Virus record (IMG/VR): IMGVR_UViG_3300027710_000003
Location: 1 to 37,968 of that record
Strand: one strand, 5' to 3'
Source of the DNA: a virus
DNA: 37,968 bases
Shown here: positions 3,189 to 37,968 of the stretch, in pieces
Layout of the letters: every line of letters begins with the position of its first letter
How positions within the stretch are numbered: the stretch's first letter is position 1
Position numbers and translations under genes: made by a program
The notes under the pieces: model-generated
Databases searched by the model: none
What the model was told of the DNA's origin: nothing
What the model saw: only the letters and a program-made list of their open reading frames with translations

Positions 3189-3196
3189 ATCATCAC
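3189..3196 (+). promoter_or_regulatory. ATCATCAC start-proximal motif
   Basis: ATCATCAC directly abuts the ATG at 3197. Only a distant partial purine stretch (AGGAA) precedes it. It is one of a set of near-identical motifs before SD-less starts in this genome. Confidence 0.5.
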
Positions 3197-6307: not shown

Positions 6308-9300
6308 ATGCCACTAGATCCACAGACCGCCGACCTAATGCTGACAGATTTCAGCGCATGGGAAAACACACTGGACGATACGCAGCGCCAACAACTTGAA
6401 ACTACCTTTAAGTATGAGCCTGACAGGGTAGCGGCTCAAAAGCGCTTTGCTGCCGTGGCGAGCGTTGCAGCATATACCAACAGCGATGTCCAAGAAGTTT
6501 CTAATCGCTTTGAAGATTACTACATGCACGCTTTCGCTCGTGATGAGCAGGTTGGCTTTGGACTCAAGAGCGGCGTTAAAGACATCAACGAGTTTCAGCA
6601 ACTGCTTACTGAGCGAGCAAACGGAAACAAAGCTAAGGTCGGCACATTTAAAAGCGCCAATGCGGCGGCTGTTGATTCAGCACTTCGCGGCAGTTCAAGC
6701 TTAAATGATTTTGCAGCATGGCAATTAGAGAACGAGCACCTTCCAGAAGCTTTTAGTGATAAAGCATATGAGGTTTGGCAGAAGACATATTCCGATGTTA
6801 AAAACGAGTTAGGCGAGGATGGTCGAGCTGCAGCATCGCGAGCATTTCGCGCCATGCGTACCATGACTGGAGTGTCAGAGGAATCTGATGCGTCTGTAAA
6901 CGAGGCTAAACGTGATCTCATCAATCTGCGCGTGCGCTCGCCAAAGGCATATGATTTGGCGCTGGCTTCCGTGCAGTTAATGGCTCAAGACGCTGGCGGT
7001 GTTGATAAAGGAGTAATACAAGGAGTTGGTGAAAATTTTGGTCGTTCAATATCTAATATTATTGAAGGTGTATTTTTTGCCAAGCCGCTTATTGAAATGT
7101 CTCAAGATGTTAGCGAAGCAATGGTCAAGGCTGGTATTACAAACGCAGAAAATCCAGAACGACTTGCCGCGCAAATTCGTGCTCGCCGAGAGGTGGAAAA
7201 TGATATTCGCGAAATATCTCGCGGCATTATTGATCCAGTAAAAAAAGCGCGCGACGGATGGTCTGGATGGGCTGAAAGCGCAGCTTATATGACCGCTTCA
7301 AGTTTGCCTTATATGGTTGGCGTGTTTACTCCAGGAGGTCAAGGTCAGGTTGCTATGGCTGGATCGTTTACGAGTGACAGTTATAATGAATTTCGAAATA
7401 ATGGATGGGAGGGCGTCTCTGCTGCAACTGGAGCTGTGGCAAGCGGTGTATTCCAATCAGCAGTAGAAACTGCTTCTGAATTTATTTTAAAAATCCCAGG
7501 TGTTGCTGGCGTGTTAAATAAATTTGGCGTTAAGCCAGGCAGTTTTTGGGCAACTCAATTTTTTCTTAGAACCGTGGCAAGATCAGGAATAGAGGTTGGT
7601 GAAGAAATTATTCAAGAAGCTACCACTCCATTTGTTCAAGAGTTGGCTAACGCCATCATTCCGTCTATTCCAGACACGCCAGAAGGTAAGCATTTAAGTG
7701 ATGTGATGGGCAAGTTTTTTGAAGCTGATAATTTTGCGCCGTTAATTCTTTCTGTGCTTCCTCTTGGCATGATCGGCGCAGGTATGTCCACGTCACAAGA
7801 TATGGATTATTTAAAGGAAGTTCAGTCATTCTTTGGCGATGATGCTGCATCTGAAATTATGGCAGAAGCCGATCCAGCCAAACGTGATGCAATGATTCGT
7901 GAAAAGTTCAAAGCAATGCCTGTTGAAGAGCTTGTTAAGCGCGCACGGATGAAGATGGAAGCAATGGCAAAACGAACAGGTCAAAGCTTTCAAAATGAGC
8001 AAGATGTTGAATCATTCCAAGACACAACGTCACCCGAATACACAGTAAGCGTAACCCGTACACCATCTGGATGGCAGGTGCGTATGGGTGATGGCAATGT
8101 AATTCAGGTTGATTCCGTCGAAGCCGCTCGTCGCATCGCAGTCGATCTTCGCCAAGTCGGAAGTCAGCAAGAGGCCGATAAATTAGTCGGCGTAATTGAC
8201 GGCTATTACGAAAAAGGTAGGCAGGCTGAAACTGTGCTTACAGGTGAAAAAGTTGAGGCATCTGAAGAGTTTGGAGTCGTGGCTATTCGGCGCGATGCTA
8301 GTGGCGCTATTATCTCTCAGCGCCAGCTTGGCCCTCAAGCTCTTGAAACCGTTCGCGCAGAAGCTGAAGTTGCAGGTATTAAGACAGGCACGCGTGGCAT
8401 TTTCGCGCACATTAACGGATCGAACGAAGTCTTCCCGATGCGCGTGGCCGATGGCGCTAAAGAGATCGTCCGCAGGATGAATCTTTACAAGTCACAGGTT
8501 GAAGGACAACCGCAGGTGATTACGTTTCTGCATGAAAACTTTGAATCGACTTGGAGTTTAGGAATGGCTAACGGCACGTTCTCAGATCAAGAGACACGCA
8601 CGGCAATGCGCGCTTTGCTGCCTGCTTTTGAAGGCGTGACGGCATTGAATGCCGAAGAGGCTCAATTCATCGACAATCTACGCACGTTGGCAAATGGCCA
8701 AGGTAATGAAACCATGTTGCGTGAAACCGTGTCGGAAATGGTCATTCGTGACGTGCTAGGACGTGATCGCCAAGGCCGTGCCACGGGCATGAAGCCAGGT
8801 TCAATCTCTCGCGCTATTGAGGCGTCTGTTATGGGCGCTAATACTCAAGAGGAAGTTAGCGCACTAAAGAGCATTCTGGCTGCAATCAAGGCATTCACTG
8901 CCTACCTAAAAGGCGTGTTCGGCACCGTTGACGCTATCACTAAAGCTCGCGATGAAGGCAAGCTCGGCGAAGAATACGACACGTTTATCAACAAAGTCCT
9001 CGGCATCGACGAGGTAAAGCAGATGGAAGGGCAGGCGATAGACGAGGCGAAGGCCATTATGGAAGAAATGCTAGCGCCATGGGAAGTGCAGGCAGTGATC
9101 GACGCTAGCAACATGGATCCAACTAGTGATGCCGAAGCTCTTAAAACTAAGGAGTTCTCACAAGCGGAAATCGACGCCAAAGAAAAGATTGGCGAAGGTT
9201 CTGAGAGTGAAGTGTTTGATGATGGCGATAACGTCCTTAAAGTGGCTGAATCCTACAACCAAACTGAGACATTAGCGGAGCGTGTTGTTTATGCTTTAAG

Positions 9301-12300
9301 AGGTGAAAAGCTTCTTGGCAACCTAAGTGGATTGCGTTACGCAGGATTCCGCCGTGGACGCAATGGAGTTCTTAACCCAGTATTTTCACAAAGGAAAATT
9401 GAAGGGCCAAGCGCAACTAAAGAGCAAGTCAGAGAGTTATTTGCAAAATATGGGTGGTCTGAAAATAACGATGGATCATTTTTTATAGACACTCCTGAAG
9501 GCAGAGTCACAACTATGCGTGACCTTTACGAGGGCGGTAATGTTATTGACGTAAATGGCCAAGCTATTCCAAGGGATATTGGGACTACTATAGATGCTAA
9601 GATGCCGTTTAGCATTTCGCCAATAACATCCGCAGAGGATGTTTCATACAACGAAGCGATTAGAGTTCAGCCAACCTCAATAATGGCTCGCGCTGCCAAT
9701 CGCGATAGCATTGGAGTTAAGGACAATATCCTGTATCGAAAAGATCGCGCATATCGATTTATTGGTGCAGAAGGTCTAGCTGATTTGCGTGAGTCTGGAC
9801 TTGTTCGTGCTCGGCAAAACACAAAGCAAGCTTACGAAAGAGCGGTTTTCATGAGTGGCAAAAGCTCAGGTCGCTATGCTGACACGCACATGATTGAGGT
9901 AATTCCAGACGACACATGGAGTGGTGACAAATATATTTCGCCTTCAAGCGATTTAGCAATCAATGACATTCCGCATCGAATCTACGAGCGCAATGCAGAT
10001 GGATCGTATTCTGTTATTGAGGATACAATCGGAGATCAGGCGTTGCTGAATGAAAGTGGCCTTGAGGAAAACGGGCAGAAAGTGGACGCCGGGAATATGG
10101 CGTTTAGCGTCTCGTCGGGCGGTCTTTCTGAGGCGGAGGCTCCCGCATGGCCGTATGATGGCAAAACCGATTGGACTGGCAAATCTGTCCCCGAAGAAGT
10201 GGTTATTTACCGGGCAAACACTTTTGATCGTGGAACCTTTTGGAGTTCTTCTTCAAGTTTTGTTAGTGCCTTTTCAAAAAGCCATGACAATGCGCCTATT
10301 CGCACAAGCAAGGTTCGTTTTAACAAAGTCTTAGACCTTACTGGCGTTGGATCGAATCCTGTTGACTTCATTAAGCGGCTGGAGGTTCAAGGTATCAATC
10401 CAGACGAACCAATTAAATTTGACCCTCGTTCTCCAGCAGAGTCTGCACGGCAGATGTCACATTATCTAACCGAGGATGATCCTGATCGCATTTTTGAAAT
10501 CGTTGATCGCGCAGGGCCGCATTGGAACCGTCAAGGGTGGCAGGCTGTAAAATTCTACGAGACTTATGATGGCAACCCTGGGCGAACATACCATGTCTTG
10601 CCAGAGTTCTTCAACCCTGAATCTTCCCGTGCCGCAGGTGGCACGTTCTCCATCTCTCCCATCCGCAACCTAAACGAACTCAGCGATCAAGTAGAGCGCA
10701 ATTTTGCCGAGAACCCGGCTGGCGCGTTAGAGGTTAAGTCCAAAGTTATCCGCCAGTTTGCCAAACTCCGCGACAAGTGGAGCAATGAACGATGGACGCC
10801 GCAGGGCAACAAGATCAGGCCGATTAGTGAAAAGCGCACGGTAAAGAGCTTGGACAAAGAGCAGGCAATGCGGCAGGCGCAGCGTGAAGTTGAGCTTGTA
10901 AATGAAGGCATGGACAAGCTGACGCCAGACACGCTGATGGCGTATTCTGAAGGCGTCGGCACGCTGGAAGACGATCCGCTTGTGAAGAAAATGCTTCACG
11001 ATAACGGGCGATTAATGTCGAAAGCTACGGCTGCGCGTGAAGGTCGAGACATCAAAGATCAATACGACGATCTGAATTGGATTCCTCCGCAATGGTATTC
11101 CAACGGCAGGACAATTAAGACCGTTGTTATCACGCGCAAAGATGGATCAAGCGAAAGCTTCCCGTCTGCCAAGGTTCCCGCTGAAATCAAAGCTGCAATT
11201 AAGTCGGGTGAAGTGAAGGTTAAAATCAACAAGGTAACGATTCCAGCGGTTGGCGGCATCATGCCAGACGTAATGGCTAACAACCTGGGATTTGATACTG
11301 CCTCCGAAATGTGGGCCGCGCTTGAATCGTCCATTAAATCCCATCGTAATGCTAAAGCTGATTATGCCAAAGCAGAGGCCGCAGTTAAAGCGGTCGAAAA
11401 AGCCGCATTTGAACAAGCACGCCAAGAAGCTCAAGCATGGCGCGACGAGGCCGATGCAATGCAGAAAGAGGACTGGTCGCCGCGTGAATCATTAGTGCGC
11501 GATCTCATCACGCTAGAAGCAATCGTTGCCATGTTCCCGCAAGAGATTCGTGGGAAAATCGGCGGCTTTGTTACCCTAGCACGCAAGGCTAGCGAGGCGG
11601 CACGTTTGAAAGTGTTGCAACGCCAGCTTGAACGCGGGCAGGTGCTGTTGGAAAAGCATCTCAAGGAGCAGTATGGAACGGCGGTTGATAAACTTTTTGA
11701 CAAGTATCGTCCTGAGCGCAAGGCAGGTGAAAAGCCAAAAGGCAAACTTGATCCAGACGCGCAGGAAATCGCAGACAAAGCAGAATCCGCGATGGGCATG
11801 ACCGCCGACGAGGTAAACGCAGAAATCGATAAGATTAACACGCTGCTCAATGCCGACAATATTAGCGCCGAAACTGAGACAAAACTTGAAGCAATGCGCG
11901 AGCTTGTGCAATTGCTGGGCGATTGGAAGAATGCCAACTCGGCGCGCCGTGAATCTGCCTTCTTGGCGCTAAATGACGTGCTTTCAGAAGGCTGGGCCAA
12001 GTGGAAAATGAAGCAACTTCTCAAGCGCGAGCAACGCGAGGAAATGCGCAAGATACTCAAATCCGCCACCGGAAAGAAAGGCGTAGCCAGCGAGCGTGAC
12101 AAGATGAAGCTGGAATCTGCAAAAGTGCTTGGCAAGGCATCACGATGGGTTCTAAATCTTTCTTCGTTTGGTGAAGTTATGAAAGCCGTGTTTGGCGAAA
12201 AAGCAGCACGGCAATTTATCGACAACGAGCGCAACGCATCAAATCAATACGAGGATGCCATCCAATTATTCAGCGAACGCATCGACGAGTTTTTCACAAC

Positions 12301-14014
12301 TCTTGCAGGCGGCGTTTTAAAAGGTGAGCGCCTTCGCTTTGATCTTGCACAGCCTACGCTGACAATCGATGCAGGCGGCATGAATGAGCGAAATATCTCA
12401 CAACTCCAAGGTATTCAGGCGCTGCTTATGTGGCAGCAAGAAGACGGCAAACGTCATATGGAGGGGCCGCGTGATGAGAATGGCGCGCCCATTGAGGGCA
12501 AGTGGAGTTACGATCAAGCATGGATCGACGAGCTAACCAGCAAGCTCTCGCCGGAAGCTGTCGAAGTGAAAAAGTTTATTGAGCAGCTTTACGGTGAAGA
12601 GTGGGTTCCATTGAATGCGGTTTATCGTGAGCGGCACGGAGTCAATCTGCCAAGGCATGACAAATACGCACCGATCACAGTAACGCCACAGCAAGCCAAA
12701 GCTGGCGAAATGGTTGATCCTGTTTCTGGCGCTGCAATCGCTGGCTCTATCTTGACTCCAGGCTCGCTCCGTTCTCGTAATCGTTCAGCACTGGCTGAAC
12801 CTGAATTTCGAGACGCACTTTCTACGTTCATTGCTCACACAAAACAAATGGAGCATTGGAAGGCGTATTATGATCTCGCCGTTGAAATGCAAGCCGTTCT
12901 TGGCAATCGTGACGTTGCAAATTCAGTAAAGGCGGCAGTCGGTGACGAGGGCGCTACTGTTCTCAGGAAGTGGGTGGATGTGTTCGCGCAGGGCGGCACC
13001 CGCGATGCTGCCGCAGGATTGGCCGTTTCTGACGGTCTGGGCAGGCTTGCGGGCCGTGTGGCTACCGTGGGCCTTCTTGGGCGATTTTCTACGCTGCTAG
13101 TGCAATCTACACAGCTTGCGGCGGCATCGGTCAAAATGCCGACTGGCGCTTATTTGAAACGCTTTGCGCTTCTTATGTCCGGCAATTTGCAATGGGCTGA
13201 CGCAATTAATTCAGAGTTCATTCAAAGACGTATTAAGTCCGCGCCTCCGATTATTCGCCAAGCATTTCAAAGCTTGGGCGAGGCCACAAGGCCAAATGAA
13301 ATCCAACGCGTAACTCGATTCTTTGGGCAGTTACTTTCAGGCGCTGACGGTCTTTTTACCGCTGGAACGTATGCCATTCTTCTTGATTATCACCGCACGC
13401 AAGGCGCAAAAATGGGGATGCAAGGCGAAGCTTTAGAATCTTACGCACACGCTGAAGCTGTCAATGCTACCGAGCAAGTGGCGCAACCTGTTCGAACGGG
13501 CACGCGTTCAATCATTGAAGTGACAAACACAAATCCCTTGGCAAAAATGTCATGGGCTTACGCTTCAGAAGCTCGCCAAAAAATGGCACTTTTTGCATGG
13601 TCTGCATACAACGCCAAGAATGATCCAGCAGGCGCGGCTAAGACTGCGTTTCTTGTGTTTGTAATCGGTGGGCTAATGTCGCAGGTTTTAAAAAATCTTT
13701 GGCGCGAAGCTAAGGGTGACGACGATGAAAAAAAATGGAGTCCTGAACGGCTTACTTTGGCAATGCTATCACCCATTACGTCGGCTATTCCTGGAGCTTC
13801 TATGCTTGCTGGCGAAGGTGGGTCATTGTCTGGCGCTGAATATACAAAGTATGCCATCAAAGATGTATTTGATGGAGACGCTGACATGAAAGATGTGGAC
13901 ACAATTCTTTCGGCTATGGGTTATTTTAACGACACAGCCGGAGGAATTGCCACGCTTTCACACGCTGGATATGACTTTGCAAAATTGCTAGAGAATGCTT
14001 TTAGCGAAAAATAA
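6308..14014 (+). CDS. Giant gp16-position ejection protein with polyvalent-type effector modules
   Basis: A 2,568-residue protein, about twice T7 gp16 (1,318). Hydrophobic stretches lie at about 320-345, 374-395, 476-495, 2245-2275 and 2446-2500, bracketing a long soluble middle, a layout known from large phage polyvalent proteins. Residues 742-747 (HENFES) resemble a degenerate zincin HExxH with a later 'ETVSEM'. Residues about 955-1095 are kinase-like: G962-E-G964 loop, K978 in 'VLKV', D1072, N1078, D1081. Two modules follow, about 1145-1240 and 1295-1445; the second has ART-like 'IYR' (R1302), a Ser run 1313-1317 and a C-terminal 'GWQAVKFYE'. 'FS(I/V)S' linkers sit at 1101, 1266 and 1447. 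A coiled coil spans about 1680-1800. The start is one base after the previous stop. A virion role is firm by synteny; the effector modules are inferred. Confidence 0.8.
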   Translation: MPLDPQTADLMLTDFSAWENTLDDTQRQQLETTFKYEPDRVAAQKRFAAVASVAAYTNSDVQEVSNRFEDYYMHAFARDEQVGFGLKSGVKDINEFQQLLTERANGNKAKVGTFKSANAAAVDSALRGSSSLNDFAAWQLENEHLPEAFSDKAYEVWQKTYSDVKNELGEDGRAAASRAFRAMRTMTGVSEESDASVNEAKRDLINLRVRSPKAYDLALASVQLMAQDAGGVDKGVIQGVGENFGRSISNIIEGVFFAKPLIEMSQDVSEAMVKAGITNAENPERLAAQIRARREVENDIREISRGIIDPVKKARDGWSGWAESAAYMTASSLPYMVGVFTPGGQGQVAMAGSFTSDSYNEFRNNGWEGVSAATGAVASGVFQSAVETASEFILKIPGVAGVLNKFGVKPGSFWATQFFLRTVARSGIEVGEEIIQEATTPFVQELANAIIPSIPDTPEGKHLSDVMGKFFEADNFAPLILSVLPLGMIGAGMSTSQDMDYLKEVQSFFGDDAASEIMAEADPAKRDAMIREKFKAMPVEELVKRARMKMEAMAKRTGQSFQNEQDVESFQDTTSPEYTVSVTRTPSGWQVRMGDGNVIQVDSVEAARRIAVDLRQVGSQQEADKLVGVIDGYYEKGRQAETVLTGEKVEASEEFGVVAIRRDASGAIISQRQLGPQALETVRAEAEVAGIKTGTRGIFAHINGSNEVFPMRVADGAKEIVRRMNLYKSQVEGQPQVITFLHENFESTWSLGMANGTFSDQETRTAMRALLPAFEGVTALNAEEAQFIDNLRTLANGQGNETMLRETVSEMVIRDVLGRDRQGRATGMKPGSISRAIEASVMGANTQEEVSALKSILAAIKAFTAYLKGVFGTVDAITKARDEGKLGEEYDTFINKVLGIDEVKQMEGQAIDEAKAIMEEMLAPWEVQAVIDASNMDPTSDAEALKTKEFSQAEIDAKEKIGEGSESEVFDDGDNVLKVAESYNQTETLAERVVYALRGEKLLGNLSGLRYAGFRRGRNGVLNPVFSQRKIEGPSATKEQVRELFAKYGWSENNDGSFFIDTPEGRVTTMRDLYEGGNVIDVNGQAIPRDIGTTIDAKMPFSISPITSAEDVSYNEAIRVQPTSIMARAANRDSIGVKDNILYRKDRAYRFIGAEGLADLRESGLVRARQNTKQAYERAVFMSGKSSGRYADTHMIEVIPDDTWSGDKYISPSSDLAINDIPHRIYERNADGSYSVIEDTIGDQALLNESGLEENGQKVDAGNMAFSVSSGGLSEAEAPAWPYDGKTDWTGKSVPEEVVIYRANTFDRGTFWSSSSSFVSAFSKSHDNAPIRTSKVRFNKVLDLTGVGSNPVDFIKRLEVQGINPDEPIKFDPRSPAESARQMSHYLTEDDPDRIFEIVDRAGPHWNRQGWQAVKFYETYDGNPGRTYHVLPEFFNPESSRAAGGTFSISPIRNLNELSDQVERNFAENPAGALEVKSKVIRQFAKLRDKWSNERWTPQGNKIRPISEKRTVKSLDKEQAMRQAQREVELVNEGMDKLTPDTLMAYSEGVGTLEDDPLVKKMLHDNGRLMSKATAAREGRDIKDQYDDLNWIPPQWYSNGRTIKTVVITRKDGSSESFPSAKVPAEIKAAIKSGEVKVKINKVTIPAVGGIMPDVMANNLGFDTASEMWAALESSIKSHRNAKADYAKAEAAVKAVEKAAFEQARQEAQAWRDEADAMQKEDWSPRESLVRDLITLEAIVAMFPQEIRGKIGGFVTLARKASEAARLKVLQRQLERGQVLLEKHLKEQYGTAVDKLFDKYRPERKAGEKPKGKLDPDAQEIADKAESAMGMTADEVNAEIDKINTLLNADNISAETETKLEAMRELVQLLGDWKNANSARRESAFLALNDVLSEGWAKWKMKQLLKREQREEMRKILKSATGKKGVASERDKMKLESAKVLGKASRWVLNLSSFGEVMKAVFGEKAARQFIDNERNASNQYEDAIQLFSERIDEFFTTLAGGVLKGERLRFDLAQPTLTIDAGGMNERNISQLQGIQALLMWQQEDGKRHMEGPRDENGAPIEGKWSYDQAWIDELTSKLSPEAVEVKKFIEQLYGEEWVPLNAVYRERHGVNLPRHDKYAPITVTPQQAKAGEMVDPVSGAAIAGSILTPGSLRSRNRSALAEPEFRDALSTFIAHTKQMEHWKAYYDLAVEMQAVLGNRDVANSVKAAVGDEGATVLRKWVDVFAQGGTRDAAAGLAVSDGLGRLAGRVATVGLLGRFSTLLVQSTQLAAASVKMPTGAYLKRFALLMSGNLQWADAINSEFIQRRIKSAPPIIRQAFQSLGEATRPNEIQRVTRFFGQLLSGADGLFTAGTYAILLDYHRTQGAKMGMQGEALESYAHAEAVNATEQVAQPVRTGTRSIIEVTNTNPLAKMSWAYASEARQKMALFAWSAYNAKNDPAGAAKTAFLVFVIGGLMSQVLKNLWREAKGDDDEKKWSPERLTLAMLSPITSAIPGASMLAGEGGSLSGAEYTKYAIKDVFDGDADMKDVDTILSAMGYFNDTAGGIATLSHAGYDFAKLLENAFSEK

Positions 14015-14026
14015 AGCCCGCAAGAT

Positions 14027-14311
14027 TCAGGATCGGCTAAGTGAGTAAATATCCGCAAGCACGGATTTAAGCCTGTCGATCTCGACGGCCTGCTGTTGGA
14101 TCGTCTGCACGTCTCTGGCAGATGCTGCAAGGTGAGACTCGGTGCGCTCGCGGAGACGTTCGAGGAGTTCGGCGTTAGCTGCTAGTGCTGCGTCTCGCTC
14201 GCGCTCAAGTTTGCGTGCAAATTCAGAGGATACTGTGTTATATGGAGGCATCATTCCGGGTTGAGCGAAAAATGTCATGCCATCAGTTTCAGGTGTTGGT
14301 GTGTCGTTCAT
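14027..14311 (-). CDS. Small coiled-coil protein, MNDTP family
   Basis: A 94-residue protein encoded convergently to the giant virion gene. It starts 'MNDTPTPETDG' and has a long charged helix (about residues 30-85, 'ARKLERERDAALAANAELL') that should form a coiled coil. Its start overlaps the stop of the upstream reverse-strand gene by 4 bp (ATGA), so it is translationally coupled. The segment before the ATG reads CATCACACC on the coding strand, similar to the ATCATCAC motif. N-terminal similarity to the adjacent 90-residue protein suggests duplication. Function unknown. Confidence 0.7.
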   Translation of the reverse strand: MNDTPTPETDGMTFFAQPGMMPPYNTVSSEFARKLERERDAALAANAELLERLRERTESHLAASARDVQTIQQQAVEIDRLKSVLADIYSLSRS

Positions 14312-14580
14312 GGTGTGATGAAGGGTTGGAGTTTGGCGAGGGCAAGATGAACAGATTCCATTGTTTCCGATTCTCGTTCAATGTCGCTGTTATTGCGTGT
14401 AAAGATTGGTTGAACGATCAGGTAATTTAAGCATTTGTGCAAAGCCAAGTCGGCATCGCGGATGGCTTTGATTGACTCGTTGAGCTCGCGTTCCAGTTCC
14501 TTAGCTAGCTTTTCCAGCATTATGCTTCTTGCTGCGTCGTAGCCTTCCAGCACTTCGTCTGTTCTCGGTGTATCGTTCAT
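14308..14580 (-). CDS. Small coiled-coil protein, MNDTP paralogue
   Basis: A 90-residue protein starting 'MNDTPRTDEV' with the helix 'LAKELERELNESIKAI', the pattern of many short uncharacterised phage and bacterial proteins. It is preceded by a good Shine-Dalgarno sequence (AAAGGAGA, about 8 bases from the ATG) and overlaps both neighbours by 4 bp. It forms the middle of the only reverse-strand operon in the genome. Function unknown. Confidence 0.75.
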   Translation of the reverse strand: MNDTPRTDEVLEGYDAARSIMLEKLAKELERELNESIKAIRDADLALHKCLNYLIVQPIFTRNNSDIERESETMESVHLALAKLQPFITP

Positions 14581-14888
14581 GGCTGTTCTCCTTTCGATAA
14601 TTCATAGGCGTCTAGGGCTGCGAAAGCAGTCGGCAAAGGGTTAATGCCTTCGTGCTTTTGCCACAAATATTCGTCGCCAAATTGAAAACGGCGGTCCTCG
14701 TATTCTTCGGTGATTAAAGCCAAGGCATTTGCCAGCTTCTCTATTAGGACAGATTGAGCCTTAATAGTCGCCATATCTTCCGCTCGAAGATTAGCCAGCT
14801 TGAGAGCAAGCTCTGCTAGCTCGTCATACTCGCGCTGCTCGACGAGTTCGATGATGCCTTCCGGCGTGTGGTATGGGTAGGTTTTCAT
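14577..14888 (-). CDS. Reverse-strand operon leader gene, helical protein of unknown function
   Basis: A 103-residue, mostly helical acidic protein ('MKTYPYHTPEGIIELVEQR'). It is the first gene of the reverse-strand operon. Its ATG has no Shine-Dalgarno sequence but is abutted by ATCATCAC on the coding strand. A terminator-like hairpin with a U-rich tail ends about a dozen bases upstream of that motif, so expression probably depends on readthrough. I do not recognise the family. Confidence 0.7.
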   Translation of the reverse strand: MKTYPYHTPEGIIELVEQREYDELAELALKLANLRAEDMATIKAQSVLIEKLANALALITEEYEDRRFQFGDEYLWQKHEGINPLPTAFAALDAYELSKGEQP

Positions 14889-14896
14889 GTGATGAT
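14889..14896 (-). promoter_or_regulatory. ATCATCAC start-proximal motif, reverse strand
   Basis: On the reverse strand ATCATCAC directly abuts the ATG at 14888. Its presence on the opposite strand, in the same position relative to the start, argues that the motif belongs to translation initiation rather than to base composition. Confidence 0.5.
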
Positions 14897-14899
14897 TTT

Positions 14900-14935
14900 A
14901 AAACAAAAAGGCCGACTCGGGCAAGGAGTCGGCCT
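14900..14935 (-). terminator. Intrinsic terminator/attenuator upstream of the reverse-strand operon
   Basis: Perfect 10-bp stem: AGGCCGACTC (14909-14918) pairs with GAGTCGGCCT (14926-14935) around a 7-nt loop. Read on the reverse strand the stem is followed by TTTTTGTTTT, so it terminates leftward transcription just before the first gene of the reverse-strand operon. The + strand side lacks a T-run, which fixes the direction. Confidence 0.75.
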
Positions 14936-14966
14936 AATGCGGTTCATCGCAAGTTGGACGGTCACG

Positions 14967-14975
14967 CCTTGCCCG
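14967..14975 (-). promoter_or_regulatory. Leader segment complementary to the terminator loop
   Basis: Nine bases (CGGGCAAGG on the reverse strand) are perfectly complementary to the whole loop plus closing base pair of the attenuator hairpin (14918-14926). In a leftward transcript this could form a pseudoknot with the hairpin or interfere with its formation. Confidence 0.45.
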
Positions 14976-14991
14976 CGAGAACCATTTCCCT

Positions 14992-15020
14992 TTTATTGAT
15001 CGGATTCCTCATCGCGTCAA
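14992..15020 (-). promoter_or_regulatory. Sigma70-like promoter for the reverse-strand leader/operon
   Basis: On the reverse strand TTGACG (15015-15020) and AATAAA (14992-14997) are separated by 17 bp, matching 5/6 and 4/6 of the sigma70 consensus. Transcription would start near 14985 and run through the complementary segment and the hairpin before reaching the ATG at 14888. Confidence 0.5.
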
Positions 15021-15066: not shown

Positions 15067-15333
15067 ATGACTCTGAACCGAGAACATTCCTCTAAAGGCT
15101 ACAAGATTAATGCTGGCACCTCAACCGTGACGTATAATTTCTACGGGTTCACGGTTATCGCCGAAACTGTAATCAATGCCATTACTGCTCCAACTGGCGG
15201 AGGCATTGAGAACAACTCATACGACGGCGACGAAGCTGGCCTCGCTGGTGTCACCTTGCCAGTTGGTTATTATCCGATTCGCGGTAGCGCGATTGATTTA
15301 ACCTCCGGCACAGTCATCCTTTGGACTGAATAA
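15067..15333 (+). CDS. Short beta-rich virion-associated protein, unknown
   Basis: An 88-residue protein rich in Gly, Thr and Tyr ('YNFYGFTVIAETVINAIT', 'YYPIRGSAIDLTSG'), predicted to be mainly beta strand. It heads the fibre-gene run and is followed after 2 bp by the FN3-like gene, so a minor structural or fibre-associated role is likely by context. No Shine-Dalgarno sequence is visible. The family is not recognised with certainty. Confidence 0.7.
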   Translation: MTLNREHSSKGYKINAGTSTVTYNFYGFTVIAETVINAITAPTGGGIENNSYDGDEAGLAGVTLPVGYYPIRGSAIDLTSGTVILWTE

Positions 15334-37378: not shown

Positions 37379-37968
37379 ATGGCCGCCACTGCTACAGAGA
37401 TCGCAAACCTTGCAATTGCCCATCTTGGTGGAAGGGCGCTGACTGCGCTTTCCACTGACACAACTCAACAAGCGGCTAGTTTGCGGAAGTGGTATAATCC
37501 AGACGCAGGAACGCCGATTTACACGGCACTTGATGAGGCATTACGGGCGCATCCGTGGAATTTTGCTACAGCTAGAAAGCGGCAAACTGTCACCTATCAC
37601 ACGCTAACAGGAGGCGCATCTGTTTCTGATGCAAGCGGACTCATCAAAATTACGCACGCTGGACATGGTTATACCACAGGAGACCGTGTTTATGTAAAGG
37701 ATGTGCAAGGCGTAACCGTTGCCAATGGTCAATGGTATGTCACCGTAATCAATTCAAACAACTTCACGCTCGACGATTCGGTTTTTGCAGGCACTTACAC
37801 GGCGGCGACAGGCAGCGTCGTCGGCATTCCACAGTTTGACTGGGACTTCCAGCACACACCACCGGCTGACTGCTTGCGCGTAATTTCGCTCAATGCAGGC
37901 GGCGGGCAGATGGAAGATGCGGGCGCTGATTTTACCGTTGAGAAAGGGCTGATCCTTACCGATGAGGA
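37379..37968 (+). CDS. T7 gp11-like tail tubular protein, 5' part, with beta-domain insert
   Basis: The N-terminal part of the 291-residue adaptor that continues at the contig start (1-406). 'ATEIANLAIAHLGGRALTAL' (residues 5-24) and 'LDEALRAHPWNFATARK' (51-67) are family marks. Residues about 72-150 are an insert absent from T7 gp11: 'HAGHGYTTGDRVYVKDV', 'NGQWYVTVINSNNFTL', a small beta domain often annotated in tail proteins as FCCH-like. The fold resumes with 'PQFDWDFQHTPPADCLRV'. The region before the ATG (ATCATTACCATT) is a loose version of the ATCATCAC motif. The last 120 bp duplicate the window start. Confidence 0.85.
   Translation, partial: MAATATEIANLAIAHLGGRALTALSTDTTQQAASLRKWYNPDAGTPIYTALDEALRAHPWNFATARKRQTVTYHTLTGGASVSDASGLIKITHAGHGYTTGDRVYVKDVQGVTVANGQWYVTVINSNNFTLDDSVFAGTYTAATGSVVGIPQFDWDFQHTPPADCLRVISLNAGGGQMEDAGADFTVEKGLILTDE
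37849..37968. repeat. Right copy of 120-bp terminal direct repeat
   Basis: Identical to bases 1-120. Merging the two copies gives an uninterrupted gp11-like reading frame of 291 codons plus stop. Confidence 0.95.

Follow-up and report, generated by a model that had tools for sequence, protein, structure and literature searches.

The minus strand of the window (the whole 37,968-nt stretch of viral DNA analyzed here) carries an element that we consider, at a probability of roughly 0.55, to encode a small non-coding phage RNA (about 80 nt) within an exchangeable accessory module on the reverse strand. Homology was confined to the RNA, the RNA was invariant and its neighbors were exchanged, which indicates a self-standing RNA module; therefore, we preferred a small-RNA gene over an attenuator, a PeSL-like cassette and a plain terminator. 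The earlier note had proposed either an attenuator under pseudoknot control or the end of a small phage RNA: the latter gained from the coincidence of the homology block with the RNA, from the invariance and from the exchanged genes, while the former was weakened. To our knowledge, no small RNA is known from phages of Verrucomicrobiota, a widespread, poorly studied phylum, and no catalogued relative of this RNA was found; the 86-nt stretch, constant amid exchanged neighbors, is a clean candidate for testing.

Phage genome and host

Because the window, a virus record, has an exact 120-nt direct terminal repeat (1-120 and 37849-37968), it probably represents the complete genome (about 37.8 kb) in a circularly closed or terminally redundant form. 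Among its products is a podovirus-type head-tail connector (Pfam Head-tail_con); this protein shared about 30% identity with pelagiphage portals and up to 40% with proteins of Verrucomicrobiota genomes (39 of 388 genomes had a match), and from this likeness of the portal protein the host is probably a verrucomicrobium. A portal homologue was present in about 10% of the sampled Verrucomicrobiota genomes (G139, G219, G249 and others), some of which had two or three, which suggests that prophages of such a kind are frequent.

Layout of the element and its promoter

On the minus strand (15020-14888), TTGACG, 17 nt and AATAAA are followed by a leader of about 50 nt, a 10-bp hairpin, a U-rich tail and an ATG (Table 1); this layout had been claimed in the earlier note and all of its coordinates held. 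The terminator hairpin reads AGGCCGACTC-CTTGCCC-GAGTCGGCCT, then TTTTGTTTTAAAATCATCAC, then the ATG of the first reverse ORF at 14888. This intrinsic terminator at the 3' end of the RNA (7 of the 10 bp are G-C, then the U-rich tail) ranked top in the 10-kb region in a consensus scan, and a -10-like TAAAAT lies directly past it. The RNA start was inferred 6-8 nt past the -10 box, and the RNA end was placed in the U-tract.

Table 1. Coordinates of the minus-strand element and of the reverse ORFs behind it in the window.
Feature	Position	Strand	Basis
Putative sigma-70-like promoter TTGACG-N17-AATAAA	-35 15020-15015, -10 14997-14992 (14992..15020)	-	Sequence match
Proposed small RNA, ~80 nt	14902..14985	-	Invariance, block common with L032, fold z
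Hairpin 1	14941..14983	-	Minimum-energy fold, window and L032 copies
Hairpin 2, 10-bp intrinsic terminator stem, 7-nt loop CUUGCCC, U-rich tail TTTTTGTTTTAAAATCATCAC	14909..14935	-	
Leader 9-mer CGGGCAAGG	14975-14967	-	Exact complement of terminator loop and closing pair
Terminator loop and closing pair CCTTGCCCG / CCUUGCCCG	14926-14918	-	Partner of leader 9-mer
First ORF after the element, 103 aa, no family	14577..14888	-	No Pfam/PHROGs match
Second reverse ORF, 90 aa, no family	14308..14580	-	No Pfam/PHROGs match
Third reverse ORF, 94 aa, no family	14027..14311	-	No Pfam/PHROGs match

The promoter matched at 9 of 12 positions and missed the conserved final T of the -10 box. Sites of equal quality on the minus strand numbered 13 in the window against 13.75 expected, so its description as the only reverse-strand promoter was unsupported. 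In four relatives the promoter was conserved apart from one spacer change in L034 (1/35 positions variable).

Invariant RNA and exchanged neighbors

The same element was present in four related phage contigs (L012, L019, L023 and L034), which were located by searching with the first ORF and with the loop-leader pattern and were aligned with the window, and its position relative to the forward gene at 15067 was the same in all four. Among these five phages, the RNA (14900-14985) had 0/86 variable positions, compared with 4/46 in the stretch between the promoter and the forward gene (Fisher p 0.014) and 32/267 in the neighboring forward gene itself (Fisher p 0.0001); identity among the five near copies could partly reflect recent exchange. 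The ORF after the element differed, being the 103-aa ORF in the window, another in L012 and a third (MKTTYTN...) in L019, L023 and L034, and a homologue of the 103-aa ORF was found further down in relatives with another ORF behind the RNA. The 103-aa ORF is cargo and no fixed partner of the element. Judged from the sequences, the gene order of the window looks like a deletion between two copies of ATGAAAAC present in L023.

A sixth copy (L032/L139) was 87% identical to the window element, and the match (window 14983-14902, L032 3904-3820) ran from the opening G of the leader stem through to the end of the U-tract, TTTTTGTT, with flanks on both sides that were unrelated to the window sequence. 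Thus delimited by sequence comparison, the conserved unit is the RNA itself, independent of the neighboring ORFs. This copy lies about 60 nt past the stop codon of the last gene in a reverse operon, and about 280 nt without an evident gene separate it from the end of a convergent large gene. The promoter falls outside the block common to the window and L032, and upstream of the L139 copy no comparable promoter match was found; the L139 RNA may arise by release from the operon transcript at its 3' end, or it could be just the operon 3' end with its terminator. The 300 nt behind the L032 copy were considered as a second structured RNA and rejected (fold z -0.5).

The exchange of cargo right at the edge of the element recalls the PeSLs of T4-type phages (Arbiol 2010, Comeau 2014), which reportedly occur densely in shuffled regions (PMC4503421, where both studies are cited). 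In a cassette of this kind, identity of promoter and terminator would let neighboring genes swap and the RNA itself would be functionless. The combination of a promoter-like site with a stem-loop beside exchanged small genes, the TAAAAT past the terminator, and the absence of the whole module from L083, a closely related phage with 93% identity in the neighboring large protein, are consistent with it. However, each genome held one copy, against the high density reported for PeSLs, the promoter was not conserved in the distant copy, and an extra hairpin (hairpin 1) was conserved though it has no role in the model; in addition, the order promoter-RNA-terminator-gene is unlike that of PeSLs. We regard such a cassette as distinctly unlikely.

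Predicted fold

The window RNA folded better than 200 of 200 shuffles (z -3.8), and the L032 copy adopted the same fold (z -3.5). Hairpin 1 consists of a GGUUC-UCGC ... GCGA-U-GAACC stem, an inner GGCG/CGUC hairpin and the internal-loop bases GGGCAA, and the consensus of the element is GGUUC-NCGC-GGGCAA-GGCG-loop-CGUC-nnnnnn-GCGAU-GAACC-GCAYUAR-terminator. In L032, 8 of the 9 outer pairs of hairpin 1 were unchanged (one U-A became A.A), and hairpin 2 showed one compensatory double change from G-C to A-U. Because the sample of six genomes comprised two distinct element sequences, covariation support for the structure amounted to this one pair; equal support arose in 230/500 shuffles, and two sequences give covariation almost no power.

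Hairpin 1 and the leader 9-mer were as conserved as the terminator, which speaks against an ordinary terminator that ends or insulates reverse transcription, with leader complementarity due to chance. Directly upstream of the element the window has forward genes only, with no evident reverse gene to terminate. In favor of an ordinary terminator, such structures are frequent, the promoter match does not exceed chance and the L139 element stands behind the last gene of its operon, yet we hold this reading to be highly unlikely.

Loop-leader complementarity

The claim that 14967-14975 is exactly complementary to the loop and closing pair at 14918-14926 was borne out, and a 50-nt leader containing such a 9-nt complement arose in 3 of 20,000 dinucleotide shuffles. 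Moreover, among 20 distinct strong terminator-like hairpins in the examined loci, only this element (window and L139 types) had more than 5 complementary nt within 60 nt upstream. Both 9-mers were unchanged in all six copies. The complementarity, whose loss beside a retained hairpin the earlier note would have counted against its proposal, thus survives in one divergent relative; since both partners are unchanged, this survival is no positive covariation evidence, and covariation cannot test the pseudoknot. What argues for a pseudoknot, at the level of sequence, is the improbability of the match and its conservation.

In the predicted fold most of the leader 9-mer pairs inside hairpin 1, so a pseudoknot would need a local rearrangement. 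The calculated cost of freeing 6 or 7 leader bases was about 4.7 or 7.1 kcal/mol for the window copy (L032 copy: 3.6 or 6.0 kcal/mol), and the loop duplex would give back about 8.5 or 11.0 kcal/mol before loop penalties are subtracted. On this balance, docking of the loop onto the leader is plausible and is not demanded by the predicted energies.

The predicted loop-leader pairing coexists with the terminator stem without competition, and no switching state is therefore evident, which weakens the reading as an attenuated leader. In that reading, the terminator would limit transcription of the reverse operon, and read-through would be set by whether the loop-leader pairing is made or released. 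Like attenuators and riboswitch leaders, the window element is a structured leader with a terminator before an ORF: a strong 10-bp terminator stands between promoter and ORF, the ATG is always about 18 nt past the T-tract in the window and the four relatives, and the 9-nt complementarity offers a possible control. However, the ORF behind the element varies among phages while the leader is constant, the L032/L139 element has no evident gene behind it, so that not all members run from promoter to gene, and no Rfam match was obtained. We consider an attenuator unlikely, and keep it as a tentative second reading.

The module has a large tail-end gene on one side and the tail-fibre genes on the other. 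Under the preferred reading as a small-RNA gene, transcription in the window group would begin at the promoter (15020-14992) and stop at the intrinsic terminator, and the RNA would fold into hairpin 1 and the terminator hairpin 2. The 7-nt terminator loop would probably dock onto the internal loop GGGCAA of hairpin 1, and the docked RNA would be compact and closed, acting alone in trans on RNA or protein. Further, we speculate that the element may represent a new family of small phage RNAs, in which the terminator loop inserts into the internal loop of the hairpin before it; the RNA closed in this way, or two molecules so joined, would form a stable particle able to bind a protein of the host or the phage. 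This extension is doubtful.

Searches for relatives and comparison with known phage RNAs

Rfam returned no family at gathering score and nothing credible at E up to 10, and distant blastn searches with the region and with the element as queries found nothing credible among phage and plasmid records. In pattern scans of viral contigs with five forms of the pattern, some without the 9-mer, only the same contigs were real, and the remaining matches were due to chance and mostly coding; the scan of 84,980 species genomes gave 34 matches, none of them element-like beyond the pattern. A covariance model scored the copies at 105-111 bits, two of the scored sequences having been used to build it, with one full-scoring copy per genome, and it found no match in 31 further related virus contigs. 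Its best match in 388 Verrucomicrobiota genomes (L130, 38.5 bits) was a terminator lying between tolB-like and superoxide-dismutase-like genes, and it was therefore rejected as convergence. Comparison of the loop with the start sites of the phage's own genes yielded no target better than shuffled loops.

The OOP RNA of phage lambda is about 77 nt long and ends at an intrinsic terminator. Like it, the element RNA is a short phage RNA opposite to the strand of most genes; OOP is antisense to cII, whereas the element RNA is opposite an intergenic stretch without a recognizable target, and no sequence relation between the two was found. Phage-encoded small regulatory RNAs, including OOP, are reviewed in PMC12197685.

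RNA anti-CRISPRs (Racr), as defined in PMC10651486, resemble the element in being small phage RNAs in an accessory region with a predicted promoter upstream. Some type I-E repeats share their 3' end with hairpin 1 (terminal sequence GATGAACCG), and 9 nt were identical to I-E repeats of two Verrucomicrobiota genomes, so that the RNA might mimic a solitary repeat. Among the 19 repeats compared, which lie beside cas6e-family genes in Verrucomicrobiota genomes, a 9-nt match was nevertheless the shuffle mean (284/500 shuffles were as good). Within hairpin 1 the handle bases are engaged in pairing, the RNA lacks the repeat hairpin, and the Rfam CRISPR repeat models gave no match at E up to 10. With a similarity no better than chance, the repeat mimic was rejected as extremely improbable.

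Other features of the region

The reverse accessory genes at 14027-14888 encode proteins of about 90-100 aa (MNDTPxTDE..., FARKLERERD). The same place holds different reverse genes in L139, L142, L143 and L144, and reverse genes are absent from it in L083, L084 and L100; the first reverse ORF of the window occupies the place of another gene in L023 (4630-3990, minus strand). The forward gene at 6308-14014 (2568 aa) has relatives at 42-93% in 22 viral contigs, and it probably encodes a large protein of the virion interior or of the tail. Clear Shine-Dalgarno sequences were seen in few genes. ATCATCAC recurs directly before ATG at 3189, 20098, 23145 and 31197 on the plus strand and at 14896 on the minus strand, as well as at gene starts of the related phages L139 and L143, and it is possibly a translation-start motif of these phages.
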